Shown here piece by piece: positions 13,676-53,490 of a stretch of 64,000 nt of DNA (the first letter of the stretch is position 1; the number at the start of each line of letters is the position of its first letter). The DNA is taken from positions 3,405,501 through 3,469,500 of the forward strand of contig NZ_CP099760.1 of assembly GCF_040760005.1 (NCBI RefSeq). Direction: 5' to 3'. Source of the DNA: Pseudomonas sp. stari2 (GTDB lineage Bacteria; Pseudomonadota; Gammaproteobacteria; Pseudomonadales; Pseudomonadaceae). The notes below the pieces were generated by a model. It was given only the letters and a program-made list of their open reading frames with translations, was not told where the DNA came from and made no database searches. The position numbers and the translations under genes were made by a program.

Positions 13676-13864
13676 CGTTCGCTTAACAGTGCGAACCCTA
13701 CCGGGCCCAGCCGCGGACAAGCATTCGTTCAATGCATTGCCCGCTGTTGGGCCTGGCGAAAAACTCGTCCCCTCAAATCAAGTAGCAGGTGTTATTCACG
13801 GGTCGTTACGACGCTGACAGAAAAAGCGGCGGCCGATTAACGGAGCGCAACCCCTCAATCGTTT

Positions 13865-13878
13865 TTGATTTAGCTCAA
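13865..13878 (+). promoter_or_regulatory. ANR/FNR-type box upstream of the BON gene
   Basis: TTGAT-TTAG-CTCAA matches the FNR/ANR consensus TTGAT-N4-ATCAA at nine of ten positions. It lies 84 bases before the BON-protein start, the usual place for an activator site. Confidence 0.65.
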
Positions 13879-13961
13879 TGTCCGTTGGCTGCTCAGGCGT
13901 AGAAACAGAAAACGGGCGTTGGTGGCCCTTGTGTTTCAGTCATTGAGAACAGGACACGATC

Positions 13962-14609
13962 ATGAACGACTTGAGCTTGCGCAATACCATTCTGGATGAG
14001 CTTGATTTTCAACCTGATATTGATGCTGCCCACATTGGCGTGAGCGTCGATAACGGCGTGGTCACGCTCTCCGGCTTCGTGAAAACTTACGTCCAGAAGG
14101 TCAATGCCGAGCGTGCAGTCAAAGCCGTCAGAGGCGTGCGCGGCGTGGCTGAAGAAATCGAGGTCCGGCCGGACAAAGACGCTGGCACGGCGGACGACAC
14201 CATCGCCAAACGCGCTCTGAGCATCATCGCATGGCGCTCGGACACTCCCGAAGGCGACATCAAGGTCGTCGTGCAGAAAGGCTGGGTAACGCTTGAAGGC
14301 CAGGTGGACTGGCAGTATCAGAGGGAAGTCGCCGAGAGCGCCGTGCGCAAGTTGTCCGGCGTGGTCGGCATAAACAACCACCTCCTCCTTCGCACGAAAG
14401 TCAAAGTCGTCGATATCCAGCAGAGCATCGAGGACGCTCTCAAGCGCAATGCCGAAATCGATGCCAAAGGCATCCACATCAAGGTCGAAGGCGGTGTTGT
14501 GAAGCTTGAAGGCAAAGTCCACTTCTGGCATGAGCGGCAGATCGCGGAACGTGCTGCCTGGTCGGTGCCGGGTGTGAGCAAAGTGGATGATCAACTGCTG
14601 ATCGCTTGA
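13962..14609 (+). CDS. Triple BON-domain protein (OsmY-like)
   Basis: A 215-residue protein made of three BON domains at about residues 3-68, 76-145 and 147-214. Each has the family pattern of a short helix followed by VKVVVQKGWVTLEGQVDW-like strands and a closing GVVGINN or GVSKVDD turn. BON domains are thought to bind phospholipid surfaces. No signal peptide is visible, unlike OsmY, so it may be cytoplasmic or inner-membrane associated. AGGAC precedes the ATG. It has an ANR-type box upstream and opens the stress cluster. Confidence 0.85.
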   Translation: MNDLSLRNTILDELDFQPDIDAAHIGVSVDNGVVTLSGFVKTYVQKVNAERAVKAVRGVRGVAEEIEVRPDKDAGTADDTIAKRALSIIAWRSDTPEGDIKVVVQKGWVTLEGQVDWQYQREVAESAVRKLSGVVGINNHLLLRTKVKVVDIQQSIEDALKRNAEIDAKGIHIKVEGGVVKLEGKVHFWHERQIAERAAWSVPGVSKVDDQLLIA

Positions 14610-14613
14610 ATCA

Positions 14614-14646
14614 TCGCCCCGGGGAACACCTGCTTCCCCGGGGCGA
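14614..14646. terminator. Strong stem-loop between convergent BON and cytochrome genes
   Basis: TCGCCCCGGGGAA (14614-14626) pairs perfectly with TTCCCCGGGGCGA (14634-14646) around a 7-base loop, followed by CTCTTTA. It lies between the stops of the plus-strand BON gene (14609) and the minus-strand cytochrome gene (14659), so it probably terminates both. Confidence 0.7.
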
Positions 14647-14658
14647 CTCTTTATGCGC

Positions 14659-15351
14659 TCAAGGCCGACTTCCGAGTGTCGCCATGTACCGCGCGACGGA
14701 TTCGGCATCCGCCCAGAACAGAGCGTGATCATCCGTTTTTATCGGAGCGCCATGAGGGCGTGGCGCACTTTGCTGCAACAACAGGATCTGGCGATACATA
14801 TAATCTGCATGCTGTCCCGCCACCCGTGGAATGTTCCCTTTGCCCGCGCCATCCTTGCCATGACAGGCACTGCACGCCGTAATGCCGGTCTCGGGAAGGC
14901 CTTGGCTAAAAATCAGTTCACCACGCGCATCGGGCGTTTCGGTTTCGGCCTTCATAGCTTTCTGCCGGGAAAAGTAGTCGGCCAGTTCGGCAACCTGGGT
15001 TTCGCTCAAGTGGGTCAATCCGCCCATGTATCGGCTGTCGATCGCATCACTTCGCGCGTGTAGTTTGAAATCGGTCAACTGTGACGTCAGGTAGGCTTTT
15101 TGCTGGCCAGCCAGTTTTGGAATGACCGCAGAGACAGACTCGCCCGTCAGTCCGTGGCACAGCGAACACACAGTGTCCGCTATGGCGCTACCCGACATGG
15201 CGGACGTTGCTTGCACGTTGTCTTCGTGAGTACCGGTGCAACCCATGAGCGTGACGAGGCAAACAGCCAGCACCTGGTGTGACCAGTGATCAGTACGCGG
15301 CATACCCTTAACGTTCATGGTCTGTAATCCCGGGGTTGCGCTGACCGTCAT
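14659..15351 (-). CDS. Di-haem cytochrome c (c4-like), probably membrane-anchored
   Basis: A 230-residue protein with two c-type haem sites, CSLCH (residues ~62-66) and CSACH (~160-164), each in a domain resembling the two halves of cytochrome c4. The N-terminus has a hydrophobic stretch ending in LVTLMGC, a non-canonical lipobox, which suggests export and perhaps lipid anchoring. It would carry electrons in the periplasm. Two further in-frame Met codons (at 15318 and 15303) could be the true start. It is divergent from the erythromycin-esterase-like gene across a region with an ANR-type box. Confidence 0.8.
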   Translation of the reverse strand: MTVSATPGLQTMNVKGMPRTDHWSHQVLAVCLVTLMGCTGTHEDNVQATSAMSGSAIADTVCSLCHGLTGESVSAVIPKLAGQQKAYLTSQLTDFKLHARSDAIDSRYMGGLTHLSETQVAELADYFSRQKAMKAETETPDARGELIFSQGLPETGITACSACHGKDGAGKGNIPRVAGQHADYMYRQILLLQQSAPRPHGAPIKTDDHALFWADAESVARYMATLGSRP

Positions 15352-15377
15352 TTTCTCCTGCGCGATGGCCCGTTTTA

Positions 15378-15391
15378 TTGATAAACCTCAA
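15378..15391. promoter_or_regulatory. ANR/FNR-type box between cytochrome c and esterase-like genes
   Basis: TTGAT-AAAC-CTCAA matches the TTGAT-N4-ATCAA consensus at nine of ten positions. It lies 27 bases from the cytochrome start and 64 bases from the start of the esterase-like gene, so it could activate one or both. Confidence 0.55.
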
Positions 15392-15454
15392 TCAACCTGC
15401 CGGGACGCGGTGTAGGAATGACCGAACAGACGACCTTTTTGGAGGACGATGTTC

Positions 15455-16822
15455 ATGCTTTCTCCTTCGCAAAAATGGCTGGAAAAACTGCACGGCCAGC
15501 AGCATCAGGTTGAAACGAAGCAGATAGCGTCGCTGTTGCATCGATACGCCGAGCCTTTGCCTGAACCGGACACCCAGGCTTTTGGCGATATGTTCGACCG
15601 TTACGCCGATGCACGGATCGTGATGATCGGCGAGGCAAGTCACGGAACCGGCGACTTCTACCGAACCCGGGCGGCGATTACCCAAAGGCTCATCGAGCGG
15701 CACGGGTTCAATATCGTAGCGGTCGAAGCCGATTGGCCGGATGCCGGCCACGTCGATCAATACGTCCGGGGGCTGGCACATACGGCGTGGAAGCGCCACA
15801 TTTTCAGTCGGTTTCCGACCTGGATGTGGCGCAACAGTGAGGTGAAGGCCTTCGCCCACTGGCTGCATCAGTACAATCACCAACGGGACCCGGAGCAACG
15901 CATCGAGTTTCGTGGCCTGGATATTTACAGCTTGCGCAACTCGATTCATGAGGTATTGGCCTATCTGGACCGGGCGGACCCGCCGCTCGCCAATGAGGCC
16001 CGGCGCCGCTATGGCTGTCTGACGCCCTGGCAGGATGATCCGGCGTTGTACGGCCATTTTGTCGAACGCGGTGGCGTCATGCCGTGTGAGCAACCCGTGG
16101 TCGATCAGCTCAATGCCATGCTGGCAGAACAGTTGGCCGGGTTTATCCGTGATGACGAAGCGTTCTTCAACGCGGCGCAGAACGCCCGAGTAGTGATGGC
16201 GGCGGAGCAGTATTACCGCGCAATCTATCGAGGGTCGACCGCTTCCTGGAACCTGCGAGACCGGCACATGTTCAACACCCTGCAGGCGCTGCTCGAACAC
16301 CGGGGCCCGCAAGCCAAGGCGGTGGTCTGGGCCCATAACTCGCACATCGGCAATGCCGGCGCCACGGAAATGGGCTGGAAAGGGCAGTTCAATATCGGAC
16401 AACTGTGCCGTAACGCCTTTGGCCGCGATGTCGTACTGATCGGCATGGCCACTGATCGCGGGCAAGTGGCGGCCGCCGATGACTGGGACGGCGAGATGTT
16501 GATCAAGGATGTCCGCCCTTCCCGGCCGGATAGCTGGGAACATCAGTTCCTCAAGGCCGGCGTTGCAGCCTCCCTGACCGACTGGCGGGACCCACTACGA
16601 AAAGAGCTGCGCAGCGTCCTGTCCACGTCGTTGCTGGGAAGGGCTATCGGGGTGATATACCGTCCAGAGACCGAGCGGTTCAGTCACTATTTCGAGTCGG
16701 TGCTGGCGGAACAATTCGATGCCATGATCTGGATCGAGCAGACCGGCCCGGTCACCGCACTGCCATTGCCGAAGAGCCAACATCTGGAAGCGGAAGACGA
16801 AACCTATCCGTTTGGCGTGTGA
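15455..16822 (+). CDS. Erythromycin-esterase-like protein
   Basis: A 455-residue member of the erythromycin esterase (EreA/EreB-like) family. Family active-site elements are visible: IGEASHGTGDFYRTRA near residue 55, VAVEADWPDA, and VVWAHNSHIGNAG near residue 285. GGAGG at 15441-15445 is nine bases before the ATG at 15455, which I prefer to the in-frame ATG at 15449. Most family members are not resistance genes, and the natural substrate is unknown. Its neighbours (PRTase, hydrolase, Usp, PRPP synthetase) suggest a stress-linked metabolic role. It converges on the hydrolase gene. Confidence 0.83.
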   Translation: MLSPSQKWLEKLHGQQHQVETKQIASLLHRYAEPLPEPDTQAFGDMFDRYADARIVMIGEASHGTGDFYRTRAAITQRLIERHGFNIVAVEADWPDAGHVDQYVRGLAHTAWKRHIFSRFPTWMWRNSEVKAFAHWLHQYNHQRDPEQRIEFRGLDIYSLRNSIHEVLAYLDRADPPLANEARRRYGCLTPWQDDPALYGHFVERGGVMPCEQPVVDQLNAMLAEQLAGFIRDDEAFFNAAQNARVVMAAEQYYRAIYRGSTASWNLRDRHMFNTLQALLEHRGPQAKAVVWAHNSHIGNAGATEMGWKGQFNIGQLCRNAFGRDVVLIGMATDRGQVAAADDWDGEMLIKDVRPSRPDSWEHQFLKAGVAASLTDWRDPLRKELRSVLSTSLLGRAIGVIYRPETERFSHYFESVLAEQFDAMIWIEQTGPVTALPLPKSQHLEAEDETYPFGV

Positions 16823-16830
16823 AGACCCGC

Positions 16831-17499
16831 TCATGCCCCCGGTGATCCGGGGGTATTCAGGTGCGTTTCAAACCAGTCGCCAGCAAGTCTGGCGACTCTT
16901 TCAAGCGCACCGGGCTCTTCAAAAAGGTGCGTGGCGCCCTCCACCACTTCCAGTCGTTGCTCACACCGCAGGGCCTGGCTGCTTTGACGATTCAAACCCA
17001 GCACCACTGGGTCCCGGCCACCGACAATCTGCAAGGTCGGCGCCTTCACTCGGGGCAGCGCCGCGCCCGCAAGGTCAGTTCGCCCGCCCCGACTGACCAC
17101 CGCTGCGACCACTTGATCGCGTTCGGCTGCCGCCACCAATGCCGCAGCAGCCCCGGTACTGGCGCCGAAAAGACCGAATCGCAGCGATTGCAATTGACGA
17201 TCCCGACCGGCCCAGTCGATCACGTCAATCAAACGCCGGCTCAACAAGGGAATATTGAAACGCAACTCCCCGCTCAGATTGTCCAAGCGCTGCTCCCGTT
17301 CCGTGAGCAGGTCGAACAACAACGACCCCAGCCCACGCCGGGCCAGAGCATCGGCCACGTATTGATTGCGTGGGCTCAACCGGCCACTACCGCTGCCGTG
17401 CACAAAGATAACCAAGGCCTGGGTGTCCGTCGGTAGACGCAAATCGGCAGACAGTTCAACCCCCTCCAGATTCAGGGTCCGAGATTGTAGTTCAGACAT
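16831..17499 (-). CDS. Alpha/beta hydrolase, dienelactone-hydrolase-like
   Basis: A 222-residue alpha/beta hydrolase. The likely triad is Ser in GLFGASTGAAAAL (residues ~111-123), Asp in IVGGRDPVV and His in VEGATHLFEEPG; IFVHGSGSGR supplies the oxyanion region. The start overlaps the end of the phosphoribosyltransferase gene by eight bases, so they are probably translated together. Proteins joining this hydrolase type to this PRTase type are known in other bacteria, supporting a joint function. The substrate is unknown. Confidence 0.83.
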   Translation of the reverse strand: MSELQSRTLNLEGVELSADLRLPTDTQALVIFVHGSGSGRLSPRNQYVADALARRGLGSLLFDLLTEREQRLDNLSGELRFNIPLLSRRLIDVIDWAGRDRQLQSLRFGLFGASTGAAAALVAAAERDQVVAAVVSRGGRTDLAGAALPRVKAPTLQIVGGRDPVVLGLNRQSSQALRCEQRLEVVEGATHLFEEPGALERVARLAGDWFETHLNTPGSPGA

Positions 17500-18196
17500 C
17501 AGAATGCTCCCTAGGGGCGCCTGTCGAGGACTCTCGCTGCCAGGCCCTTTGCATGAGCGTGATGACCTCTTCGTCCGAAGTCTGGGAAAAATCCCTGTAC
17601 CAGTAACCGATCGAGATCATCCATTCGGGCACCCGTGTGCAGATCACTTCGTCCACTTCGTAGCGCAAGGCCTCAACCGTTTCGTGAGGGGCGACCGGCA
17701 CCGCCACAACGATGCGCGCCGGTGCCTGCGCACGCACGGCCTGGATCGCCGCCATCATCGACGAACCGGTTGCCAGGCCATCGTCGATCAGGATCACCAC
17801 CTGGTCCTTGAGTGGCGGCAGCGGACGGTTGCCCCGGTAAGCTTTTTCGCGTCGCGACAGTTCCTGCGTTTCCCGGGCGACCACGGCATTGAAGCTGGCT
17901 CGGTCGATCCGGTGCCCTCGCAACGCCTCTTCATTGAGGATTTGTATACCCCCGCTGGCGATTGCGCCCATGGCGTATTCCTCCTGCGAAGGGACGCCAA
18001 GCTTGCGCACCAGCATCAGGTCCAGGCGCACATTCAGGGCAGTGGCGACTTCATAAGCCACCGGCACCCCGCCACGGGGCAAGGCGAGAATGATGACATC
18101 AGGCCTGTTGGCGTATTTGAGCAAGGGCTCCACCAGGCCCCGGCCGGCATCGACGCGGTCGAGCAAGGTAGTTTGCAATGAAGGACTCTGCATCAT
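17492..18196 (-). CDS. Phosphoribosyltransferase family protein
   Basis: A 234-residue type I PRTase-fold protein (COG1926-like). VVILIDDGLATGSSMMAAI (residues ~120-138) is the PRPP-binding loop with its paired acidic residues and T-G, and LPRGGVPVAYEVATAL is the N-terminal pyrophosphate-contact region. The chosen ATG at 18196 follows GAGGAGG at good spacing; the longer frame lacks such a site. It sits between the Usp gene (62 bases upstream) and the hydrolase gene (8-base overlap), forming a usp-PRTase-hydrolase operon. The base or other acceptor it uses is unknown. Confidence 0.83.
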   Translation of the reverse strand: MMQSPSLQTTLLDRVDAGRGLVEPLLKYANRPDVIILALPRGGVPVAYEVATALNVRLDLMLVRKLGVPSQEEYAMGAIASGGIQILNEEALRGHRIDRASFNAVVARETQELSRREKAYRGNRPLPPLKDQVVILIDDGLATGSSMMAAIQAVRAQAPARIVVAVPVAPHETVEALRYEVDEVICTRVPEWMISIGYWYRDFSQTSDEEVITLMQRAWQRESSTGAPREHSDV

Positions 18197-18257
18197 GGGA
18201 ACCTCCTCAGGCATTGAGGCCTGGCATTTCGTATTCGGCTGCCCTGACCGCATCGCG

Positions 18258-19148
18258 CTAGACAGCCAGAATGCTGCAAGGCACCTGATACAGGGTGTGT
18301 TCGGTGGTACTGCCCAGGAACTTGTCCAGCCCCTGCGACTGGACCCTGCCCATCACAATCACATCCACCTGATGCTCAGCGGCGAAAGCATGCAGCACGG
18401 CAACCGGGTGTCCCTCAATGAAATGTCGCCGGTCAGAAGGCACGCCGTATTGGTCCGCCAGCTCGATGAATGACTTTTCATGGCCCTTGCGCAATTGCCT
18501 GCCAAGTGCGGGAAGCGTTAGTCCACCACCGCCCATATCCCCCAGGAATAAAGTCGAAATGTCACAGGCGGACAGCAAGTGCAGTTCAGCCCGGCATTGC
18601 AAGGCGAGACTGGACGCCTGCCGGATGATCCGTTCATTGAGCGCATTGCCCTGTTCCAGCACATCGGAAACGTCAATCGCAGCCACTACCTTGCGCGGCA
18701 GTCGAAGATTGCCTTCGCTCAGCAGGTAGACCGGGATCGGACAGTGACGCAACAAACGCCAGTCCAGCGGCGTGAAAAATGCCCGTTTGAACGATGACTC
18801 GTGTTGCACCAGTTTGATCAGCAGGTCCGGCTGCAATTCCGCGACGTAATCGAGGATGTCTTGCTGCAGGTCATCGGCCCAGTTCGCCTGTGCTGTCGCG
18901 TCGATCCCCCTGTCGCGCAGGAGACCGACCTGGTATCCGATCCAGTCGCGCTGGTCTTGCAAAAAGTCTTCGCGAGCCTTTTGCCGATCGCCTTCTTCCA
19001 GCAGCGACAAGAGTTTCCAGGAAGGGATCAGCGCGGCAATGTGCAGTTGTGCACCACTGGCCGCGGCAAGGGCGCCGGCATGTTCAATGGCTTGGGACTG
19101 ACGCTGGGCCGGGTTGATGATCAGCAATAACCGTTGGTACTGGCTCAT
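18258..19148 (-). CDS. Tandem universal stress protein (UspA family)
   Basis: A 296-residue protein with two Usp domains (about 1-145 and 155-296), the UspE-like layout. The second domain ends in VIVMGRVQSQGLDKFLGSTT, close to the ATP-binding G-x2-G-x9-G-S/T motif; the first is more degenerate and may not bind nucleotide. GGAG precedes the ATG. Tandem Usps of pseudomonads are commonly induced under oxygen limitation through Anr, which agrees with the two perfect boxes 99 to 199 bases upstream. It is the first gene of the operon with the PRTase and hydrolase. Confidence 0.87.
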   Translation of the reverse strand: MSQYQRLLLIINPAQRQSQAIEHAGALAAASGAQLHIAALIPSWKLLSLLEEGDRQKAREDFLQDQRDWIGYQVGLLRDRGIDATAQANWADDLQQDILDYVAELQPDLLIKLVQHESSFKRAFFTPLDWRLLRHCPIPVYLLSEGNLRLPRKVVAAIDVSDVLEQGNALNERIIRQASSLALQCRAELHLLSACDISTLFLGDMGGGGLTLPALGRQLRKGHEKSFIELADQYGVPSDRRHFIEGHPVAVLHAFAAEHQVDVIVMGRVQSQGLDKFLGSTTEHTLYQVPCSILAV

Positions 19149-19246
19149 GATCGGACTCCATGCACTTGCACCTGATCGCGACGGCGTGCCACTGATCAGA
19201 TACTTCTGTGATGAATTCAGAATCCTCCCCAGAGACAGCCCTGGCG

Positions 19247-19260
19247 TTGATTTTTATCAA
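19247..19260. promoter_or_regulatory. Perfect ANR/FNR box, Usp side
   Basis: TTGAT-TTTT-ATCAA matches the FNR/ANR consensus at all ten defined positions. Its centre is about 105 bases from the Usp start. If it sits near -41.5, transcription would start about 60 bases before the Usp ATG, a plausible class II layout. Confidence 0.8.
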
Positions 19261-19333
19261 GTGCCTGCGCAAGCCAGCCAGTGGCCCCCGCAGATTCAGG
19301 TTCATCGAGAGGCGTTTTTTCAGTTGATCGCGT

Positions 19334-19347
19334 TTGATCAATATCAA
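19334..19347. promoter_or_regulatory. Perfect ANR/FNR box, PRPP-synthetase side
   Basis: TTGAT-CAAT-ATCAA is a second ten-of-ten match, 87 bases from the first. It could activate the PRPP synthetase gene through a long leader (start at 19634) or act as an upstream site for the Usp operon. Confidence 0.75.
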
Positions 19348-19633
19348 TTTCACCCGTGCCAGACGGCCTACATTGACCCGACACGCAAGCGAAAGAGGCG
19401 CATGGCTGAGGACTGATGGATCTACATGTCACGACCTGTGCGTGAGTCGGAAGGTCTGTCAGTTGCCAATCCGGGCCGACATCGTCGAATGTCACGTACC
19501 GCCCTTCGAACAAGACTTCGGCATCGAAGTCGTCCGGCATGGCGTCGGGCTCTGACGGCATCGGATCAGGCGACTCGCCAGGGCTCGACGGCTTGGCCTC
19601 CGGCCTGCCCCGGCCACTGTAAAGGAGACTCGT

Positions 19634-20599
19634 ATGCTTGCCCTGCCCGCGCTTCTCTTTGCACTCCAAGGCAGCGAACGCTATGCCGCGCGTGTCGCCC
19701 AGCGGCTGGGTTGTTCATTGGCGCGGCATGAGGAGCGAGACTATGAAGACGGAGAACATAAATGTCGCCCGCTGGATTCGGTCAATGGTCGCGACGTCGT
19801 CGTTATCCATGGATTGCACGGGGATGCCCTGCAAAGTGCGAACGACAAGCTGTGTCGCCTGCTGTTTTTCTGCAGTGCCCTGAAGGACGCCGGTGCCCGC
19901 CAGGTGCAAGTGGTGACGCCCTACCTCTGCTACGGGCGCAAGGATCGTCGCAGCCAGCCTCAGGACCCGACCATCACGCGTTATGTAGCCGCATTCTTTG
20001 AGGCCAGTGGCGTGGATCGCCTGATCACTCTGGACGTGCACAATCCTTCCGCGTTCGACAATGCCTTCCACATCCCGACGTGGAACCTGTCGTGTACCGA
20101 ACTGTTTGCCGAATATTTCGCTTCGCTGGTTGGCGACTCGGACGTGGTTGCCGTGTCTCCGGACTCGGGAGGCCTCAAGCGTGCCGAGCAGTTTCGCCAG
20201 GCGCTGGAGCGCAGACTGGGACGCCCGGTCGGCAGCGCCCTGATGGAAAAACACCGGGCCCACACCACACTGACGGGCACCCTGTTGATCGGCGATGTCG
20301 GCGGCAAGAGCGCCATCATTTACGACGACCTGATCAGCACCGGGGAAACGCTCAAACACGCTGGTCTTGCCTGCCAGAAGGCGGGAGCCGGTCGGTTGTT
20401 GGCAGCCGCCACCCATGGGTTGTTTACCGCAGGCAGCCAATTGTTCATCCCGCCGATCTTTGAGCAGATCGCGATCACAGACACCGTGCCGCCGTTTCGC
20501 CTGTCTTCCGATTGCGTAATGCGGCACCTGCACATACTCGACAGCACGGCCCTGCCTGCCACCGTTCTGAAGGAAACCGGCGCGTTCGATCACAACTGA
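19634..20599 (+). CDS. Second, divergent ribose-phosphate pyrophosphokinase
   Basis: A 321-residue PRPP synthetase homologue of normal family length. PYLCYGRKDRRSQPQDPTIT replaces the usual P-Y-x-x-Y-x-R-Q-D-R motif, LITLDVHNPSAFDNAF is the divalent-metal/ribose-phosphate signature in altered form, and AIIYDDLISTGETL is the PRPP loop. GGAGA precedes the ATG. The sequence is clearly diverged from housekeeping Prs, and the gene is not in the usual ispE neighbourhood, so it is a second enzyme making PRPP from ribose-5-phosphate and ATP under special conditions. The adjacent PRTase could use its product. Confidence 0.85.
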   Translation: MLALPALLFALQGSERYAARVAQRLGCSLARHEERDYEDGEHKCRPLDSVNGRDVVVIHGLHGDALQSANDKLCRLLFFCSALKDAGARQVQVVTPYLCYGRKDRRSQPQDPTITRYVAAFFEASGVDRLITLDVHNPSAFDNAFHIPTWNLSCTELFAEYFASLVGDSDVVAVSPDSGGLKRAEQFRQALERRLGRPVGSALMEKHRAHTTLTGTLLIGDVGGKSAIIYDDLISTGETLKHAGLACQKAGAGRLLAAATHGLFTAGSQLFIPPIFEQIAITDTVPPFRLSSDCVMRHLHILDSTALPATVLKETGAFDHN

Positions 20600-20747
20600 G
20601 CCGATTGTCAGGGACGTCTGCGTCCGGTGGTCGCTGTTGTATCAGACCGGTGATGAACGGGCGCCACCAGCTCAGCACATCCGCTCAATCCTTCCGGTGC
20701 TGCGGCGAGGGACGATTGGCGGACTTTTCATCATTGGCCACCTCCCC

Positions 20748-22054: not shown

Positions 22055-22150
22055 TGGCGGAAGGCAGCCGGAGTCGAACCTGCCCGGGAACGGATGCCGT
22101 CCCCAACCGGGTTTGAAGCCCGGCCGCGCCACCGGGCGCGATTGCCTTCC
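22055..22150 (-). tRNA. selC: tRNA-Sec (anticodon UCA)
   Basis: The minus strand reads an unusually long tRNA of about 93 bases plus an encoded CCA (22055-22057). The acceptor arm is GGAAGGCA... with ...GCCTTCC at the other end. The anticodon loop CTTCAAA lies on a GGG/CCC stem, the long variable arm is typical of tRNA-Sec, and the T-arm contains GGTTCGACTC. Anticodon UCA reads UGA as selenocysteine. It is 6 bases after the selB stop and probably cotranscribed with selAB. Confidence 0.96.
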
Positions 22151-22156
22151 TTGAAC

Positions 22157-24076
22157 TCAGTCGGCGCCGGGGTTGGCCAGCGCGTTGTCGAAGCGGATCT
22201 GCCGACCCTCGCCGAGACGCCGGGTCAGGCCGAGGCGGTCGAAGTATTCGAGGATCTGGATACTGCGTTTGCGTCCCAAGCCTAGCGCATCACGGAACGC
22301 CGTGACTTGAATCGGCGGATTTTCTTCACCCAGGCGCAACAACACCGACGCCATCTGCCGCAAGGTGATGTCGGTGAAGAACAGATCTCGCACTACCTGA
22401 TGCATCACGCCCAGTCGCGCCAATTTGCGTAGCAACAGCCGGACAGTGGCGTCCTCCTGGTTCACGGCTTTGGCCACATCGCGCACCCAGGGCGGATCGA
22501 AACCGGCCTGTTCAAACAGCGGCTGCAACGCCTGCCACAGGGTTTCGTCGTCGGCATTCAGGCGCACCTGATGGTCCGGCAAATGCAGCCATGGACCGCT
22601 GGCGGTGAGCGAGCCGGCGCTGCGCAGTTCTTCCAGCAGACTGATGAAGGTCGAGTGCTCGATGTTCAAGCCGCTGAAACGCCGCAGACGATCACGATCC
22701 GGGCCCATCTGGTCGGGTTCCAGTTCATGGAAACGCGCCAGTTGTTCCAGCAGGATGAATTTGAGAATTCCCCAGCGCTGGGCGTTGAACAGTACCTGGC
22801 CCTGACGGGTTTCGATCAGACGGACGTTGTCCGGCAGGGACCAGCCCTCACGCGGACGGTTGAACTGACGCTCCAGACGCTGCGAATCAATGCCGCTTTC
22901 GCTGTTCTCCAGTAGCGTTGGCAGTGCTTGCTCCAGGCTGGAGCTGATCGCCAGCGCCCGCAATTGCGCCAGACGGCCAGGGCTGCGTCGTTGCCGGGCC
23001 GGGCCGAACGGGTCGAGCAACTGACCACCGCCGAGCGTACGTTGCGCACTTGGATCGCGCAGGATCAACCGATCCCCTTTCACGCCGTGTACCGGGACAT
23101 TGGTCAGCATTTGCGCGAGCATGCGTTCGCCCGGATGCAGTCGTGGTCCTTCGAGCAATGCCACGCGGGCGATCACATCTTGTGTGCCGAGGTGCAGATG
23201 CACAGGCTGAAAGTGTTCGAAGGTGCGCGTTTCATCAGGCAGCAGCTGGAAGTCGATGTCCAGGCGTTGAGTCGGTGCGAACAATCCTTCGGCGAGCAGC
23301 CATTGCCCGCGATGGATTTGCCCGAGTTCCAGGCGTTCAGCGCTGATGTTCAGGGCTACACGCTGGCCGGCAAACGCCAGCTCTGCGGGTTGATTCTGCG
23401 CGTGAAGCCCCCTCACCCGCACCGTTTTGCCCGACGGCCCGAGGATCAGTCTGTCACCCACCGCGACCATTCCCGACAGCGCCGTGCCCGTCACCACAAT
23501 CCCGGCGCCAGACACACTGAACGCCCGGTCGATGGCCAGACGAAATCCGCCCTCGCGACTGCGCTTCAACACCTCACTTTGCGCCCTTAGCAACGTTTGC
23601 CGCAGGGCCTCGACGCCCTCACCCGTCACGCTTGAAATCGCGAGCATCGGCGCACCTGCAAACGGACCGGGCGCCAACAGGTGTTCGATTTGCCGGCGAA
23701 CCTCCACCAACCTGTCCGCCTCGACCCGATCACATTTGGTAATCGCCACCAGCGCTCGGGGAATGCCCAGCAATTCGACAATCGCCAGATGCTCGCGTGT
23801 TTGCGGCATCACGCCGTCATCCGCCGCGACCACCAGCAACACCAGATCAATGCCCTGGGCGCCGGCGAGCATGTTGTGGGTGAATTTCTCGTGGCCCGGC
23901 ACGTCGATGAATCCGGTCAACCCCGCTCCGGGCGCCAGTTCGGCATAGAGATAACCGAGGTCGATGGTCATGCCCCGCTCGCGCTCCTGCGGACGGCGGT
24001 CGCCGGATTGCCCGGTCAGGGCCTGGAGCAGCGAGGTCTTGCCGTGGTCAATGTGCCCGGCGGTGCCGACGATCAT
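22157..24076 (-). CDS. selB: Selenocysteine-specific elongation factor
   Basis: A 639-residue SelB. The N-terminal GTPase domain starts [20 protein letters not shown] with G1; DVPGHEKF (G3) and TKCD (G4) follow. Domains II-III lie in the middle, and a C-terminal winged-helix array (residues ~390-639) binds the SECIS hairpin. The start at 24076 overlaps the selA stop (ATGA), so the two are coupled. A longer upstream frame lacks homology and is rejected. It delivers Sec-tRNA to the fdoG UGA codon. Confidence 0.95.
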
Positions 24077-25479
24077 GTCTGCAACAGCCCGAGTTGCGCG
24101 AGCCACGCCGGTTCGTCGTCGAGTTGCCGCAGATCCAGCCATAGCGCGTCATCGTCGAGGCGTCCGAGCACCGGGATCGGCAACTGGCGCAACGCGGTCT
24201 GCAGATTCAACAGCGAGCGCCCGCGCAGGCGTTTCGACACTTGAGGGCGGGCACACAATGCCGCGCTTGGCAGCCGCGCCACCGGTTGGCTGCCGCTGCC
24301 GATCATGCCCAGTGTTTTCTCCGCCGTCACAGTCCAGGGTTCGCCGAGCACCTTGGCCAATGCCGGTTGCAGACGTTCAGCCTGGGCGAAGATGTCATCT
24401 TGCGGACGGGTCAGCAGGCGCAAGGTCGGCAACCGCTCGGCCAGACGATCCGGATCGCGATACAGCCCGAGCACCGCTTCCAGCGCCGCCAGTGTCATCT
24501 TGTCGACCCGCAAGGCGCGTTTCAGCGGGTTTTTCTTGATCTTCGCAATCAGATCCTTTCGCCCGACAATCACCCCGGCCTGCGGCCCGCCAAGCAGTTT
24601 GTCGCCGCTGAAGGTGACGATGTCCGCGCCATCGAGCAGAGCCTGACGCACCGTTGGCTCCGCCGGCAGGCCCCAGCGGGTCAGGTCCAGCAGGCTGCCG
24701 CTGCCTAGGTCTTCGAGCAGCGGCAAGTCATGCCGATGGGCCAGCTCCGCCAGTTCTGCTGTCGGCACCCGGGCGGTAAAACCCTCGATGCTGTAATTGC
24801 TCGCATGCACGCGCATGATCAAGCCGCTGCGCGGGCTGATCGCTGCTTCGTAATCCCGGGCATGGGTGCGATTGGTGGTGCCGACCTCGTGCAGACGCAC
24901 GCCGGCCCGGGCCATGATGTCGGGAATACGGAACGCGCCGCCGATCTCGATCAGTTCGCCGCGAGAGATGATGCCGTCTTTGCGCACGCCGAGGCTGTTG
25001 AGGGTCAGAAGCACCGCCGCCGCATTGTTATTGACCACGGTCACGGCTTCGGCACCGGTGAGTTCGCGGATCAGGCCTTCGATCAGGTCATCGCGGTCAC
25101 CGCGCTTGCCGCTGGCCAGGTCGAATTCGAGGTTCAAGGGATAGCGGGCCGCCAGCTGCACGGCGTCGATGGCTTCTTCCGGCAACAGCGCACGGCCCAG
25201 ATTGGTGTGCAGCACCGTGCCGGTCAGGTTGAACACCCGTCGCACCTGACTGCGCTGTTGCAGCGCCAGACGTTCGGCAATCCTGCCGGCCAAGGCTTCA
25301 GGGCTGATCTCGACGGCGGAGAGCTGCCCCGCCACGACCGAATCGCGCAAGTCGTCGAGCAACTGACGCAACATCGCCAGCAGCGCCTCGCGCCCGTGTC
25401 GCTCGGCCACGGGCTGAAAGGCGTTGTGACGCAACAGACTGTCGATGGAAGGCAAACGCTGGGCAACACTGGCAGGCAT
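24073..25479 (-). CDS. selA: L-seryl-tRNA(Sec) selenium transferase
   Basis: A 468-residue SelA, the normal length. The PLP enzyme converts Ser-tRNA(Sec) to Sec-tRNA(Sec) using selenophosphate. The Schiff-base Lys is in [15 protein letters not shown] (residues ~285-299), and [17 protein letters not shown] is the family motif. The four-base overlap with selB and the 48-base gap from fdhE place it in the fdo-sel operon. selD, which makes selenophosphate, is not in this window. Confidence 0.95.
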
Positions 25480-25527
25480 CAGACGCTCCGGATTAAAAGC
25501 CGTTGCGCCAGAGTGTAGACGCTCGGC

Positions 25528-26454
25528 TCATTCGTCTCCGGGTGCCAGCAACAGATTCGGTGCCAGGCGCTGATAACCGTCCTGGGCCAGGCGCATGTCG
25601 AGCAGCAGACTGCCCAGATCCGCCGACAGCGCCTCGCCCTCCCCGTCGTTTTCCAGATACAGCAACTTCAGATAGCTGTTGCAGCCGGGACAGACTTCGG
25701 CCCTCAGCGGTGCCTGATTGGCAGCGTGACGATCATCCTCAAGGCTCAGGTATTCAAGGCCCTTGCTCTGCTCGCAATACACGCACTTGACCCGCACCAC
25801 ATGCCATTCGCAGGCGCACAGCGAGCACACCAGATAACGCAAGCCGTTGTGCTTGCCACGATGGCGGATCACTCCGGCCATGGCCGGCGAACCACAGGCC
25901 GGGCACTGGCCGAGGCTGTTGCCGGGCGCCAGTTTCAGGTGCGGTGCGCTGAGCAGCCAGTGGCTCCAGGCCGTTTGCAGCGCTGCGCCGAGAAACGGCA
26001 CCAATGCCGCCGGCACCAGCGAATACTGGCCGCTCACCAGCGCCACCGCCCAGGCCCGCAACTGGCCGGAACTGGCAACCCGCAACGACGTGACCGCATC
26101 GGCAACGGCGTGTTGTTCCGGTGTACCGTAGCGTTGCAGCAAGGCATCGAGATACGCCTGCCAGCCGTCCTCGCGGATCAGGGTGTCGGCGGCGAACGGC
26201 GGCATGCCGTGTTGCCGGCAGACTTCAAGCCGTTGCTCATCAATCGGGGCGTTTGAAGGCGGATCGTCGAGGACTTGCTGTTGCACGCGGCACAATCCGG
26301 CGATCAGACGCAGGTAATCGGCCAGCGGATGCCCGATCGCCAAATGTTCCAGACGTTCGGCGCGCAGCGTGAACAGGTTGCGCGGCGGCAAGTGCAGAAA
26401 CGGCGGCGCACTGGCCGCCGCTTCGATTTCCCCGGGTTCAAGAATGGTTGGCAA
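25528..26454 (-). CDS. fdhE: Formate dehydrogenase accessory protein FdhE
   Basis: A 308-residue FdhE, of typical length. The C-terminal half carries the rubredoxin-like Cys pairs CPACGSP, CSLCACEWH, CVYCEQ and CPGCNS, which bind iron and interact with the catalytic subunit before export. The start lies 3 bases downstream of the fdoI stop, so the gene is in the fdoGHI operon. It is cytoplasmic and needed for formation of active enzyme. Confidence 0.93.
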   Translation of the reverse strand: MPTILEPGEIEAAASAPPFLHLPPRNLFTLRAERLEHLAIGHPLADYLRLIAGLCRVQQQVLDDPPSNAPIDEQRLEVCRQHGMPPFAADTLIREDGWQAYLDALLQRYGTPEQHAVADAVTSLRVASSGQLRAWAVALVSGQYSLVPAALVPFLGAALQTAWSHWLLSAPHLKLAPGNSLGQCPACGSPAMAGVIRHRGKHNGLRYLVCSLCACEWHVVRVKCVYCEQSKGLEYLSLEDDRHAANQAPLRAEVCPGCNSYLKLLYLENDGEGEALSADLGSLLLDMRLAQDGYQRLAPNLLLAPGDE

Positions 26455-26457
26455 ATG

Positions 26458-27111
26458 TCAGCCCTTTTTGGTGATCGGTCGCTCTGGCGGATCCTGGGAT
26501 TCCACTTCGCGATACCAGAGTGCGTGATGTTTTTTCGCCCAGGCGCGGCTGACCCAACCGTGCAGCATCGCGTCCACCGAGCCTTTGATCCAGATCCCGG
26601 CATAGATGTGCACGATGATGCTGAGGATCAGCACAAACCCGGCCAGTGCATGCAGCAACATCGCCCAGCGAATCGTGGTGATGCCGAAGTAATGACTGAA
26701 GTACGCGCGCCAGATCACCAGCCCCGTGAACAACAGCCCCAGCATGCACAGCAGTAAAGTCCAGAACAGCATTTTCTGCCCGGCGTTGTACTTGCCTACC
26801 GGCGGCACCGTTTCCTCGTCGTTGACCAGCACCCGGTCAATGCGCCGCAGCCACTTCCAGTCATTGTCGATAAAGAAGTTCGAGCGCCAGAAACGGAACA
26901 CCAGGCCGAGGAAAAACACGAACATCAGCACGCCCATGAACGGGTGCAGAATCCGCGTCCACGGCCCGCCACCGAACAGGTTGGTCAGCCAGAACATCGA
27001 CGGATGAAACAGCGCCAGTCCCGAAAGCCCGGCCATGAAGAACAGAATCGCCACCAGCCAGTGGTTGGTGCGCTGGTTGGCGGTGTAGCGCAGGATCGTC
27101 TTGTTGCTCAT
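26458..27111 (-). CDS. fdoI: Formate dehydrogenase gamma subunit, cytochrome b556
   Basis: A 217-residue integral membrane protein with four TM helices ([75 protein letters not shown]). Conserved His residues (for example [21 protein letters not shown]) fit the two haem b ligands. It anchors FdoGH to the membrane and passes electrons to quinone. It overlaps fdoH by four bases. The fdo name is used because a non-respiratory pseudomonad fits the aerobic enzyme; the fdn paralogue cannot be excluded. Confidence 0.92.
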
Positions 27112-28043
27112 GGCCGGCCCTCCCCGCGTGGATCGAAGGTGTGCACCGCCGGGTCGACCACGTGTACCGAGGTGTCGGGCGGTTCCGGATGGTCATCCTC
27201 TTCGGTGCGATTCGGGCCGATCCGCACGTAATGGAAGAACCCGGCCAGCACCGCCGCGCCCATGGCCAGCAGGCCAAGCGGTTTGCTGATGCCTTTCCAA
27301 AGGCCCACCAACGGGCTGATCGCCGGATTCTCCGGCAGCCCGGCGTAGATCTTCGGCGTGTCCGCATGATGCAGCACGTACATGACGTGAGTGCCGCCGA
27401 CGCCTTCGGGATCGTAGAGGCCGGCGTTGTCGAAACCACGGCTCTTCAGGTCAACGATGCGTTCGGCCGCGTGGGTCTTCATGTCCTCTTTGGAGCCGAA
27501 GACAATTGCCCCGGTCGGGCAGGTTTTCACGCAGGCCGGCTCCAGCCCCACCGCCACGCGATCCGAACACAGTGTGCATTTGTAGGCCTTGTGGTCCTTC
27601 TGCGAGATGCGCGGAATGTTGAACGGGCACCCGGTGATGCAATAACCGCAACCGATGCAATGGTCCTGATCGAAATCGACGATGCCGTTGGCGTGCTTGA
27701 TGATCGCCCCCGGGCTCGGGCACGCCGCCAGACAACCGGGCTCGGCGCAGTGCATGCAGCCGTCCTTGCGGATCAGCCATTCGAGATTGCCGGTGTCGGT
27801 TTCGTGCTCGGTAAAGCGCATCAGCGTCCATGACTCCGCGCTCAAATCCTGCGGGTTGTCGTAGGTGCCGTGGTTGTGGCCGACCTCGTCGCGCAGCTCG
27901 TTCCATTCCGAGCACGCAACCTGGCAGGCCTTGCAGCCGATGCATTTGGTGGTGTCGATCAGCTTGGCGACTTCCTCCTGATTGCGCACCGAGGGTGCCG
28001 GCGTTGTCGTGGCCGAGCGGGCAATGATGTCTTGGCTGGCCAT
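27108..28043 (-). CDS. fdoH: Formate dehydrogenase beta subunit, iron-sulfur
   Basis: A 311-residue electron-transfer subunit with four [4Fe-4S] clusters. The four Cys groups are [40 protein letters not shown] and CTLCSDRV ... ACVKTCP. A C-terminal hydrophobic helix ([18 protein letters not shown]) anchors it at the membrane. It is translocated with the alpha subunit through Tat. It is immediately downstream of fdoG with no gap. Confidence 0.94.
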
Positions 28044-31000
28044 TTATAGTTTCTCCACGTTGACCAGGAATGACTTGGATTCCGGGGTCTGTGTATTGCC
28101 ATCGCCGAGGAACGGCACCAGGGTGTTGGTCAGGTAGCCGTGACGCGTCAGGCCGGTGAAGCCCCAGTGCAGCGGGATGCCGATCTGATGCACGACCTGA
28201 CCGTTGACCTGCAACGGCCGGATCCTTTTGGTCACCACTGCCACCGCTTCGATGAACCCGCGTTTGCAGCTGACCCGTACCCGATCACCGGCAGCGATGC
28301 CCTTCTCTTTCGCCAAGACTTCACCGATTTCCACGAACTGCTCCGGTTGGGCAATCGCATTCAACCGGCAATGTTTGCTCCAGAAGTGGAAATGCTCGGT
28401 CAGCCGGTAACTGGTGGCGGCGTACGGGTAATCCTTGGCCACGCCGAGGCTGTCCCACACCGAATCGAAGATCCGCGCCGCCGGGTTGCTGGTGGCTTTC
28501 TTGTTTTCGGGATGCAGCGGGTTGATGCCGATCGGCGTTTCGAACGGCTCGTAGTGCTCGGGGAATGGCCCTTCGTTCATCTTGTCGACGGCGAAGAATC
28601 GCGCCACGCCTTCGGGGTTCATGATGAACGGGTTCATTCCGGCTTCCGGCGGCACGTCGGCCTTGTAGTCCGGCACGTCGGTGCCACCCCAGGCCTTGCC
28701 GTTCCACCACACCAGACGTTTTTTCGGGTCCCAGGGTTTGCCCTGCATGTCCGCCGAAGCGCGGTTGTAGAGAATCCGCCGGTTGGCCGGCCAGGCCCAC
28801 GCCCAGCCTTGGTGCTGATGCATGCCGTACGGATCGGCGTTGTCGCGCCGGGCCATCTGATTGCCGGCCTCGGTCCAACTGCCGCAGAAAATCCAGCAAC
28901 CGGAGGCGGTGCTGCCGTCATCCTTGAGCTGGGCGAAGGCGGCCAGTTGCGAATTGCCCTTGATCGCCGCGCCCGTGGCGTCGGTGAAGTCAGTGGTGGC
29001 GTAGCCGTTGACCTCCTTGGCGATTTCTTCCGGCGACGGTTCTTCCGGGATCTTGTACGGCCAGGAGAGTTTGAGGATCGGATCGGGATAGGCGCCGCCC
29101 TCGGTCTGATAACGCTGACGCAGGCGCATGAACAGCTCGGTCATGATCCGCACGTCGGTGCGTGACTCGCCCGGGCCGTCGGCGCCTTTCCAGTGCCATT
29201 GCAGCCAGCGACTGCTGTTGACCAGCGAGCCGTCCTCTTCGGCAAAGCAGGTGGTCGGCAGGCGAATGACTTCGGTCTGGATGTCGGCGCTTTTCACATC
29301 GTTGTACGGCCCGACGTTTTCCCAGAACTGCGAGGTTTCAGTGGCCAGCGGGTCCATCACCACCAGCCATTTCAGTTTGGCGAGAGCAGCCATCACCCGG
29401 TTCTTGTCCGGCAGCGCGGCAATCGGGTTGAAGCCCTGGCACATGTAGCCGTTGACCTTGCCCTGCCCCATCAGATCGAACACCTTGAGGATGTCATAGT
29501 TGGGGATGTCGAGTTTCGGCAGGTAATCGTAGGCCCACTGGTTTTCGGCGGTCGCGTTGGCGCCGTACCAGGCTTTCATCAGGCTGACGTGGAACTTGCT
29601 GTAGTTCTGCCAGTAGGACAACTGGCCCGGCCGCAACGGCAATTGCGTGCGTTTCTTGATGTAGGCGTTGTAGTCCTGCTCGGCGTCGGTGGGCAGGGTC
29701 AGGTAACCTGGCAACGAGTTCGACAGCAACCCGAGGTCGGTCAGGCCCTGAATGTTCGAGTGCCCGCGCAAGGCGTTGACCCCGCCGCCGGGCATGCCGA
29801 CGTTGCCCAGCAACAGTTGCACCATCGCCGCGCTGCGGATGATCTGCGAGCCGATCGAGTGCTGGGTCCAGCCCAATGCGTAAAGGATGGTCATGGTCTT
29901 GCCCGGTTGCGAGCAAGTGGCGATTTCCTCCCAGATTTTCTTCATCGCATCGACCGGCATGCCGCAGATCTGGCTCGCCAGGTCGATGTTGTAGCGGCTG
30001 TAATGCTGCTTCATCAATTGATAGACGCAGCGCGGGTCCTGCAGGGTCGGGTCGACTTTGGCAAAGCCGTCCTCGCCCAGCTCGTAACCCCAGCTGGATT
30101 TGTCGGTGTAGCTGCGTTTGGCCGCGTCATAACCGGTGAACAGTCCGTCCTCGAAGCCGAAACCGGCTTTGACAATGAACGACACGTCGGTGTAGTTGCG
30201 CACGTATTCGTGCTGGATCTTGTCCTCGGTCAGCAGGTAATTGATCAGCCCGCCCATGAACGCGATGTCGCTGCCGGTGCGAATCGGCGCGTAGTAATCG
30301 GCCACGGACGCGGTTCGGGTAAACCTGGGGTCGACGACAATCAGCCGCGCCGCATTGTGCGCTTTGGCTTCGGTCACCCATTTGAAGCCGCATGGATGCG
30401 CTTCAGCGGAGTTGCCACCCATCACCAGGATCAGATTCGCGTTGGCGATATCGGTCCAGGTGTTGGTCATGGCTCCACGGCCGTACGTCGGGGCAAGACT
30501 TGCCACCGTCGGGCCGTGTCAGACACGCGCCTGGTTATCGAACCCCAGCATGCCGAGACTGCGCACCACCTTGTGGGTGATGTAGCCCGCTTCGTTGGAC
30601 GCCGCCGACGCTGCGAGGAACCCGGTGGTCAGCCAGCGGTTCACCGTTTGCCCCTGGGCGTTCTTCTCGACGAAATTGGCGTCGCGGTCGGCCTTCATCA
30701 GGTCGGCGACGCGGTCGAGGGCTTCATCCCAGGTGATCCGGGTCCATTCGCTGCTGCCGGGCTTGCGCACCTGCGGGTACTGCAGGCGGCCCGGGCTGTG
30801 AATGAAGTCCAGCAGGCCGGCGCCTTTCGGGCACAGGGTGCCGCGGTTGACCGGGTGGTCGGCGTCGCCCTCGATATGGATGATGTTTTGCGCAACGTTC
30901 TTCGCGGCATCGCCCTGGCTGTACATGATCAAACCGCAACCGACCGAGCAATACGGGCAGGTGTTGCGGGTTTCATGGGTGTGGGCAAGCTTGAAGTGGC

Positions 31001-31109
31001 GCACCTGCTCGGCGAAGGCCAGCGTCGGGGCCATGCCCAACGCGCCCAGGCTTGAGCCTGCAAGGCCGATACCGGCGACCTTGAAGAACTGACGACGGCT
31101 GAGATCCAT
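28044..31109 (-). CDS. fdoG: Formate dehydrogenase alpha subunit, selenocysteine-containing
   Basis: A 1021-residue molybdopterin enzyme encoded across an in-frame UGA at 30519-30521, residue 197, which codes for selenocysteine (E. coli FdnG has it at 196). The frame before it ends ...FDNQARV and after it resumes HGPTVASLAPTYGRGAM, the normal family sequence. The N-terminus is a Tat signal (SRRQFFK), followed by a [4Fe-4S] site, CPYCSVGC, with a fourth Cys in GTLCPKG. A gene caller would split this into two pieces. The ATG at 31109 follows AGGAG. It oxidises formate to CO2 in the periplasm. Confidence 0.96.
30479..30521 (-). promoter_or_regulatory. SECIS element of fdoG
   Basis: Reading the minus strand, the UGA (30521-30519) is followed by CACGGCCCGACGGTGG and then GCAAGTCTTGC, closely matching E. 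coli fdnG and fdhF SECIS sequence. A stem with an AGUCU-type apical loop can form within 40 bases, where SelB binds. Confidence 0.85.
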
Positions 31110-31130
31110 CGTGCACTCCTGATCAGGTGG

Positions 31131-31156
31131 AACCCGGTACTTGAGCCGGGTTTTTT
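31131..31156. terminator. Hairpin with T tract in the fdoG leader / patB upstream region
   Basis: AACCCGG (31131-31137), loop TACTTGAG, CCGGGTT (31146-31152), with six T on the plus strand up to 31156. It lies 22 bases upstream of the fdoG start. No plus-strand gene ends here, so on the fdoG message it would be a leader hairpin rather than a terminator. The 219-base region shows no other clear element. Confidence 0.4.
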
Positions 31157-31328
31157 CTGGACATTCACGGTGGCGGCAAGCGAGTGCCGACTTTTTCACT
31201 GTAGACAACGGCGCCGTGGTCTGTGTGAAAACCGACCGTCGGCCATTCGTCGGTCACAAGTTCGCGCCCGCAGGGGCTGGAGGTTTATCATCGCCGGCAC
31301 GACCCATCTCCGCCCTCAGAGACCGCGC

Positions 31329-44105: not shown

Positions 44106-44218
44106 TGCTGTTGCCTCTCTCTTTGTTGGAATTATTCAGAGATAGCTCACAACCAGAATGCCCCTCCCGGGGCGCTCCGGAGCATTTCGATACAACACTT
44201 CTGTCTTGCAGCCCCGAT

Positions 44219-44247
44219 GGACACCGCCGCAATGCGCAGCGGTGTCC
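44219..44247. terminator. Stem-loop between the two lipase genes
   Basis: GGACACCGC (44219-44227) pairs with GCGGTGTCC (44239-44247) just after the first lipase stop (44256) on the minus strand. It lacks a T tract, so it may slow or stabilise the message rather than end it. Confidence 0.5.
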
Positions 44248-44255
44248 GCAAGGGA

Positions 44256-45944: not shown

Positions 45945-45970
45945 GTCGTGCTCTCTCTTCCTTTCAAAAA

Positions 45971-45994
45971 CGGCAGTTCTCTGCAGAACTGCCG
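45971..45994. terminator. Stem-loop between autotransporter and lipase genes
   Basis: CGGCAGTTCT (45971-45980), loop CTGC, AGAACTGCCG (45985-45994): a perfect 10-bp stem in the 57-base gap between the second subtilase autotransporter and the first lipase gene. It may attenuate transcription into the lipases. Confidence 0.6.
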
Positions 45995-46001
45995 CTACAC
46001 C

Positions 46002-49088: not shown

Positions 49089-49129
49089 CCAGCGACCTTC
49101 CTTAGTGATGTTGCACAAAATCCGTTTGT

Positions 49130-52081: not shown

Positions 52082-52123
52082 GTTCACCACTCGTTTTTGT
52101 TGTTTTGTTTAGAAACTACGGTG

Positions 52124-53476: not shown

Positions 53477-53490
53477 ACAGCCGAACATCC

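Follow-up and report, generated by a model that had tools for sequence, protein, structure and literature searches.

A TT1426-type phosphoribosyltransferase (PRT), a DLH-like alpha/beta hydrolase (ABH) and an erythromycin-esterase-like (Ere-like) hydrolase are encoded next to one another in a 64,000-nucleotide stretch of the genome of Pseudomonas sp. stari2 (contig NZ_CP099760.1, positions 3,405,501 to 3,469,500), referred to here as the window. The three proteins form a recurrent module, found adjacent or fused in four phyla. They probably serve one undescribed pathway, because they recur together in distant bacteria, sometimes as a single protein. We propose with moderate confidence that they are partners in this pathway, that it is supplied by a dedicated phosphoribosyl pyrophosphate (PRPP) synthetase (PRS), that its chemistry is one of salvage, and that it has been recruited by Anr/FNR-type regulation in Pseudomonas. 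Our confidence that the module is one pathway is higher than in this statement as a whole, and our confidence in the salvage chemistry is lower. No description of the three-enzyme module was found in the open-access literature searched. The genes of the four enzymes in the window are as follows.

15449..16822, plus strand: Ere-like hydrolase (PF05139, 430 bits against a cut-off of 26.4)
16831..17499, minus strand: DLH-like alpha/beta hydrolase, ABH (Ser114-Asp163-His191)
17492..18253, minus strand: TT1426-type phosphoribosyltransferase, PRT (full-length similarity and PRPP loop)
19634..20599, plus strand: second PRPP synthetase, PRS (TIGR01251, 204.7 bits against a cut-off of 113)

Recurrence of the three enzymes

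Among 299 Pseudomonadota genomes, PRT was found in 36 (E <= 1e-15) and the Ere domain (PF05139) in 29 (E <= 1e-10). The PRT search scored at most nine candidates per genome, making copy numbers lower bounds. Both enzymes were present in 20 genomes, against 3.5 expected from the margins (Fisher p = 6e-15, uncorrected for kinship), and nine of these 20, including that of the window, carry Ere within 3 kb of PRT. PRT is thus present in 36 genomes in all. Thirteen of these 36 genomes also carry ABH (E <= 1e-10), which is adjacent or fused to PRT in seven, 3.8 kb away in one, next to Ere rather than PRT in one and elsewhere in the genome in four. Fifteen of the 36 encode a second PRPP synthetase, in eight of them within 10 kb of PRT. 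The counts of PRS use TIGR01251 or scores over 150, because the in-house PRS profile drifted to PRTases (79 open reading frames). The window's genome holds one other PRPP synthetase (E <= 1e-20), which bears out the description of PRS in the first-pass annotation as the second of the genome.

Partners of PRT were also counted at 132 loci, either fused to it or within 2.5 kb. This sample is partly chosen, as it comprises 35 loci from an even draw of Pseudomonadota, the 80 best by similarity from named genomes, 15 picked loci (plasmids and Actinomycetota, chosen by annotation or Ere hits), the window and a second island of the same genome described below. All three parts were found at 23 loci, one partner at 43 and neither at 66; the corresponding figures for the 80 named loci are 13, 29 and 38. 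The 23 complete loci span Pseudomonadota, Actinomycetota, Verrucomicrobiota and Nitrospirota, and PRT with ABH alone is also found in Cyanobacteriota and others. In Actinomycetota, Ere is present in 19 of 149 genomes, and the 15 examined of the 28 matches listed include six PRT-Ere fusions and one Ere adjacent to PRT. A table for Deinococcus deserti gives consecutive locus tags for Ere and a PRTase (PMC2669436). PRT is also present on haloarchaeal plasmids, lacking ABH and Ere partners in the one locus read. Seed searches with the cytochrome c and with HAD-AAA gave no match. The suggestion of the first-pass annotation that PRTase, Ere-like protein and hydrolase co-occur beyond close relatives is thus upheld by the search for neighbourhoods and fusions, and the same holds, less often, for PRS.

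Fusions and tight operons

On the strength of the fusions, we favour a shared pathway over other readings. PRT-Ere fusions were confirmed by Pfam at four loci (L079, L058, L082 and L147) and PRT-ABH fusions at three (L040, L042 and L148). The reverse order, ABH-PRT, was recognised with the ABH profile at L018 and L095, where Pfam detected only the PRTase part. All three domains are joined in PRT-ABH-Ere order in one 865-residue protein encoded on Rhizobium leguminosarum pRL22b6 (R. leguminosarum triple fusion, WP_246712452.1), whose hydrolase part scores 23.5 bits in Pfam against a cut-off of 27, and 272 bits with the ABH profile (loci with the triple fusion: L151 and L176). Five plasmid records, one of them that of the query itself, match this protein over at least 80%; the others are from R. 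johnstonii (in two pieces), Rhizobium sp. NLR16a, R. lentis and Salipiger sp. CCB-MM3 (68% identity), and profiles place the three domains of the Salipiger protein in the same order. At that Salipiger locus (L176), genes for allantoinase and ureidoglycolate lyase of purine breakdown lie a few genes away, which may be chance.

The module also occurs as separate genes. Novosphingobium pLA3 carries an Ere-ABH-PRT operon with 4-base overlaps, and Sphingobium pTK1 shows the same gene order, followed by PfkB, CBS, PRS and thymidine phosphorylase genes. Four-part sets that include PRS were found on Paraburkholderia phymatum pBPHY01, in Bradyrhizobium (L058) and in a Methylococcaceae genome (L055). 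On a FastTree phylogeny in which 53 of 129 forks are weak, the Ere fusion and the ABH fusion each require at least six changes, a rough figure.

Active sites and structural neighbours

The residues expected of working enzymes are largely retained. In ABH, S114, D163 and H191 are kept in 50, 52 and 51 of 52 aligned rows, and in PRS, H136, K206 and R208 are kept in 17 of 17 rows, one gene being counted twice. The PRPP loop noticed in the first-pass annotation holds across the family, with Asp-Asp-Gly in all 35 PRT of the even draw: D143, D144, G145 and A147 are present in 35 of 35 and T148 in 33, and elsewhere R46 is kept in 32, G47 in 35, R69 in 31 and K70 in 34. Conservation of PRT was judged on these 35 loci because those of the larger 49-row alignment were found partly through the patterns LPRGGV[PV]VA and [RE]LD[LV][MV]LVRK, which makes the two stretches partly invariant by construction; in the even draw they vary somewhat. 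We take the conserved residues of ABH, PRS and PRT to be catalytic. In the Ere family, E62, H65, R74, E93 and H296 are kept in 64, 68, 67, 68 and 69 of 69 rows, respectively, and a catalytic role of such residues is described for this kind of enzyme (PMC6254334). A few rows of the Ere, ABH and PRS alignments are one gene fetched twice.

The nearest solved structure to PRT is TT1426 of Thermus thermophilus (1wd5), a hypothetical protein in its record, which states no function or partner. By sequence, the nearest to ABH is 2o2g. A structure model of PRT reached a predicted local distance difference test score (pLDDT) of 91, and beyond 1wd5 its structural neighbours tie, with PyrR structures among them. 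These would suit a PRT acting as a PyrR-like sensor of PRPP or nucleotides that steers both hydrolases without phosphoribosyl transfer, and fusion with two hydrolases also fits a regulatory domain. We regard this as quite unlikely, as the PRPP loop, R46, G47, R69 and K70 are mostly kept, in line with a catalytic type I enzyme; the argument is a weak one, since PyrR keeps such residues. On account of the same tie, the substrate base is not readable from the fold. A C-terminal stretch, IGYWYRDF, looks by eye like the base-binding loop of HPRT, and no claim is made of it. A structure model of a PRT-Ere fusion was poor (pLDDT 52, eight sequences) and was not used. The label COG1926 for PRT is the first-pass annotation's own and is presumed here.

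Partners of the Ere domain

EreA, EreB and EreD belong to the same Pfam family as the Ere-like protein of the window. However, this protein misses the cut-offs of the resistance enzymes (EreB, 48.5 against 750 bits; EreD, 31.9 against 800; EreA, 26.9 against 750), and is not to be read as a macrolide esterase because it falls so far below them. Fourteen of the 29 Ere proteins of Pseudomonadota are of a kind in which the same Ere domain is fused to a protein-isoaspartate methyltransferase (PCMT) instead of being partnered by PRT and ABH. Two of them were confirmed by Pfam (L127 and L138) and 12 were called by eye on the sequence preceding Ere, with L129 and L131 called from partial PCMT sequence. 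Of the remaining 15, 13 come from genomes with PRT and nine lie within 3 kb of it. Ere-like domains behind a PCMT domain were seen at L127-L138, L140 and L143, and also on many rhizobial and sphingomonad plasmids.

This second partnership raises the possibility that the hydrolases undo ester or imide damage in proteins or carboxyl groups, the Ere domain working with either PCMT or PRT and ABH, and that PRT removes or adds ribose phosphate. Identity between the Ere portion of the triple fusion and the Ere of annotated isoaspartate methyltransferases reaches 64%, and TIKI-type peptidases have been proposed to have the Ere fold and a His/Glu mechanism in common with this family (PMC6254334). However, no protein substrate has been shown for these Ere domains. 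We know of no precedent for a PRTase acting on protein-bound ribose phosphate, which also counts against such repair, and we consider it very unlikely.

The cluster in the window and its FNR/Anr-type boxes

The four enzyme genes belong to a cluster of seven, each of which was found where the first-pass annotation had put it and with the expected family. The remaining genes and the FNR/Anr-type boxes (consensus TTGATN4ATCAA, given without strand) are as follows.

13865..13878: FNR/Anr-type box TTGATTTAGCTCAA, one mismatch, 83 bases upstream of the BON start codon
13962..14609, plus strand: BON x3, protein with three BON domains (family search)
14659..15351, minus strand: di-haem cytochrome c (two CxxCH motifs, CSLCH and CSACH)
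15378..15391: FNR/Anr-type box TTGATAAACCTCAA, one mismatch, between the divergent cytochrome c and Ere-like genes
18258..19148, minus strand: tandem universal stress protein (Usp), UspE-like, heading the Usp-PRT-ABH run
19247..19260: FNR/Anr-type box TTGATTTTTATCAA, perfect, between Usp and PRS
19334..19347: FNR/Anr-type box TTGATCAATATCAA, perfect, between Usp and PRS

Usp, PRT and ABH run consecutively on the minus strand, and the ABH and PRT genes share 8 bases. The Ere-like gene is convergent with ABH and divergent from the cytochrome c gene, and PRS is divergent from Usp. With 158.8 bits the Usp misses the NF008380 cut-off of 227, and it is named here only as a UspE-like tandem Usp.

All three intergenic regions for which boxes had been claimed carry them, at 13865, at 15378 and at 19247 with 19334. 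The window contains two perfect boxes against 0.05 expected from shuffles, two or more being reached in one of 100 shuffles, and eight boxes with at most one mismatch against 1.09 expected, a number that none of 100 shuffles reached. Three of the eight are distant from the cluster (4064, 39780 and 55825), and one lies within the Usp gene (19114). The 6.3-Mb genome has 20 perfect boxes, including the two in the cluster. In Pseudomonas, a box with at most one mismatch heads the operon holding PRT at eight of 11 scanned loci, the window included, and this position holds whether the first gene is Usp, GroEL or PRT. No such box was found at the operon head of L049 or L068, and L052 is ambiguous. 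At L026, a locus of the same genus with a distant PRT, outside these 11, no perfect box was found.

Two FNR proteins of the genome score above the NF008365 cut-off, the normal Anr and one encoded within the second island. Each shows, by eye, a CxxCx5C motif close to the N-terminus and another Cys further on, giving four candidate cluster cysteines. Boxes precede the cluster genes above chance and are conserved in Pseudomonas, and these motifs support a predicted control of the cluster by Anr/FNR in this genus. The site for PRS is doubtful: the closest box ends 286 bases upstream of its start, which leaves its own FNR control uncertain and the weakest of the set. The control by Anr and oxygen put forward in the first-pass annotation thus gains motif support for the cluster in Pseudomonas, with PRS excepted.

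Elsewhere in the window, a selenocysteine set lies near the cluster (22059-31208), with tRNA-Sec at 22059-22150, genes judged by eye to be SelB-like and SelA-like, and a formate dehydrogenase alpha gene whose reading frame contains a TGA (30519-30521) under a SECIS_3 element. A FAN1-like nuclease gene is followed by a DEAD_2-type helicase gene at 37278-41245. The region 42252-56624 contains two subtilase autotransporters (Pfam), a type I secretion set (by eye) and two RTX-repeat proteins, the N-termini of both of which resemble, by eye, the haemophore HasA.

A second island and the lxa locus

About 294 kb from the cluster, the second island (C1:3,720,279-3,755,341; 3.72-3.76 Mb) contains eight of the 20 perfect boxes of the genome as well as the second FNR protein. 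Its region (L009-L011) encodes Hsp20, nitroreductase, GroEL, FtsH, a PolX-type polymerase and a P-type ATPase with hemerythrin (Pfam), together with an ABC export set judged by eye. Two paralogues of the window BON protein are found there (80% and 71% identical), several Usps (the best 62% identical to the window Usp) and an adjoining pair of ABH (77%) and PRT (74%) paralogues with a broken Usp copy. No match to the Ere-like protein, PRS or cytochrome c of the window was found in the island at E 1e-4.

These parts recall the lxa locus of Burkholderia cenocepacia, which contains its own FNR protein, BCAM0287, with FNR-box-like motifs at low-oxygen genes (PMC4505428), and which includes a BON protein, cytochrome c, Usps, a heat-shock protein, a cation ATPase and an FtsH-like peptidase (PMC6127331; PMC4981469, Table 2). 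Usps, Hsp20, BON, cytochrome c, an ATPase and an own FNR are common to lxa and to the cluster and island taken together; here the cytochrome c is in the window cluster only. There are also differences. The lxa locus is contiguous, with about 50 genes, whereas the genes here are at two sites, and the lxa gene table (PMC4981469) lists neither an Ere-like gene nor a PRPP synthetase, though many of its hypothetical entries were left uninspected. Because the island resembles the published lxa locus with its own FNR, the window cluster is best described as a satellite of a larger lxa-like system.

Further phosphoribosyltransferases occur in such surroundings. The extended lxa locus of B. contaminans lists a nicotinate PRTase (PMC4981469), and a nicotinate phosphoribosyltransferase gene lies near PRT in Pseudomonas jinjuensis (L053:12849-14285). 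A second, different PRTase (PF00156) was seen near PRT on the opposite strand at several Pseudomonas loci (L010:13117-13767, L047, L053, L054 and L068).

Predicted oxygen control and stress-gene company across lineages

At 35 further Pseudomonadota PRT loci, 18 perfect boxes lie within 6 kb, against 0.4 expected from shuffles and 0.8 expected from the 338 boxes of those genomes, the latter figure being based on rounded genome sizes. Fourteen perfect boxes were found at six of 31 named proteobacterial loci. Stress genes also gather near PRT. Within 9.5 kb, Usp is present at 16 of 35 PRT loci against one of 19 Ere control loci (p = 0.002), and at 11 of the 80 named loci; P-type ATPase is present at nine of 35 against none of 19 (p = 0.02). 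The control is small, L142 having been dropped for overlap with a PRT locus. Differences between PRT and control loci were not significant for Hsp20 (6 against 1), BON (3 against 0), GroEL (2 against 0) or PRS (6 against 0). FNR control and Usp company are therefore real but lineage-bound. Induction of Usps at low oxygen is likewise not universal, as six Usp genes are down in anoxic B. thailandensis (PMC3966863).

Two observations weigh against our proposal. The 18 boxes sit at only 10 of the 35 further loci, leaving 25 with none within 6 kb. In addition, the 35 loci of the even draw comprise four with all three parts, six with one partner and 25 with neither Ere nor ABH nearby. The scarcity of boxes, absent also from 25 of the 31 named loci, led us to reject low oxygen as an intrinsic theme of the module. 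The first-pass annotation had taken low oxygen as the shared theme, and this part of it is not supported in that form: the complete modules of Novosphingobium pLA3 and Salipiger lie in plain surroundings, no perfect box being found in the stretches examined.

The second observation, the significant company of Usp and P-type ATPase and the share of the lxa parts list held by the cluster and the 3.72-3.76 Mb island would all be expected if the enzymes were fellow passengers of an lxa-like stress island, unrelated stress proteins under common FNR control with no shared pathway. However, PRT is fused to Ere, to ABH and to both, and repeated fusion is unexpected of passengers. ABH is found on either side of PRT, and tight Ere-ABH-PRT operons occur away from any obvious stress island. 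We therefore regard mere co-residence as unlikely and retain the shared pathway as the reading that the fusions favour.

Relation to DosR dormancy genes

The first-pass annotation compared the cluster with DosR-regulated genes of Mycobacterium tuberculosis, giving Rv2030c as a PRTase-Ere protein and Rv0571c as having a hydrolase domain, the latter being carried here as an assumption. No DosR box with at most four mismatches to the consensus was found on either strand of the window, and 13 actinobacterial module loci gave one weak DosR-like site, with four mismatches, and none that was convincing. The architecture of Rv2030c, PRTase plus Ere, is in print (PMC4410610). Rv0571c is given as a putative PRTase, and a 2017 review lists both proteins as not yet characterised (PMC5309233). 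The likeness is by description only: the mycobacterial proteins are under a different regulator, whereas the window has separate genes and a second PRPP synthetase. The interpretation in the first-pass annotation is supported in part: it holds for the module and is too narrow with regard to oxygen. For lxa, a low-oxygen island with Usps has already been described and likened to DosR (PMC6127331), so that the island type is known; the PRT-ABH-Ere module is uncharacterised and PRPP-linked.

A proposed pathway and its meaning

Based on the family assignments, PRS would supply PRPP to PRT, the obvious link between the two. The likeliest chemistry is that both hydrolases open or trim a small molecule of ester, lactone or amide type, and that PRT then attaches a freed ring nitrogen to the ribose-5-phosphate of PRPP, for salvage or detoxification; both the order of the steps and the direction of the transfer may differ from this scheme. 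In Pseudomonas, the module would have joined Usp, BON and cytochrome c in a stress island of the Anr/FNR type, and the boxes and FNR proteins suggest that the cluster is made at low oxygen. More tentatively, and with slightly less than even confidence, we suggest that PRT, ABH and the Ere-like protein, often with a dedicated PRS, form one pathway across phyla, its enzymes having been fused several times into single proteins, that Rv2030c is an outpost of it, and that different lineages added oxygen control separately.

Three orphan families of enzymes, each annotated on its own and one of them named for antibiotic resistance, travel together. The triple fusion of Rhizobium and Salipiger offers a single tractable enzyme for the chemistry and the order of its steps. 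Knowing the function of the module would probably be informative for dormancy proteins that are still uncharacterised, Rv2030c among them.

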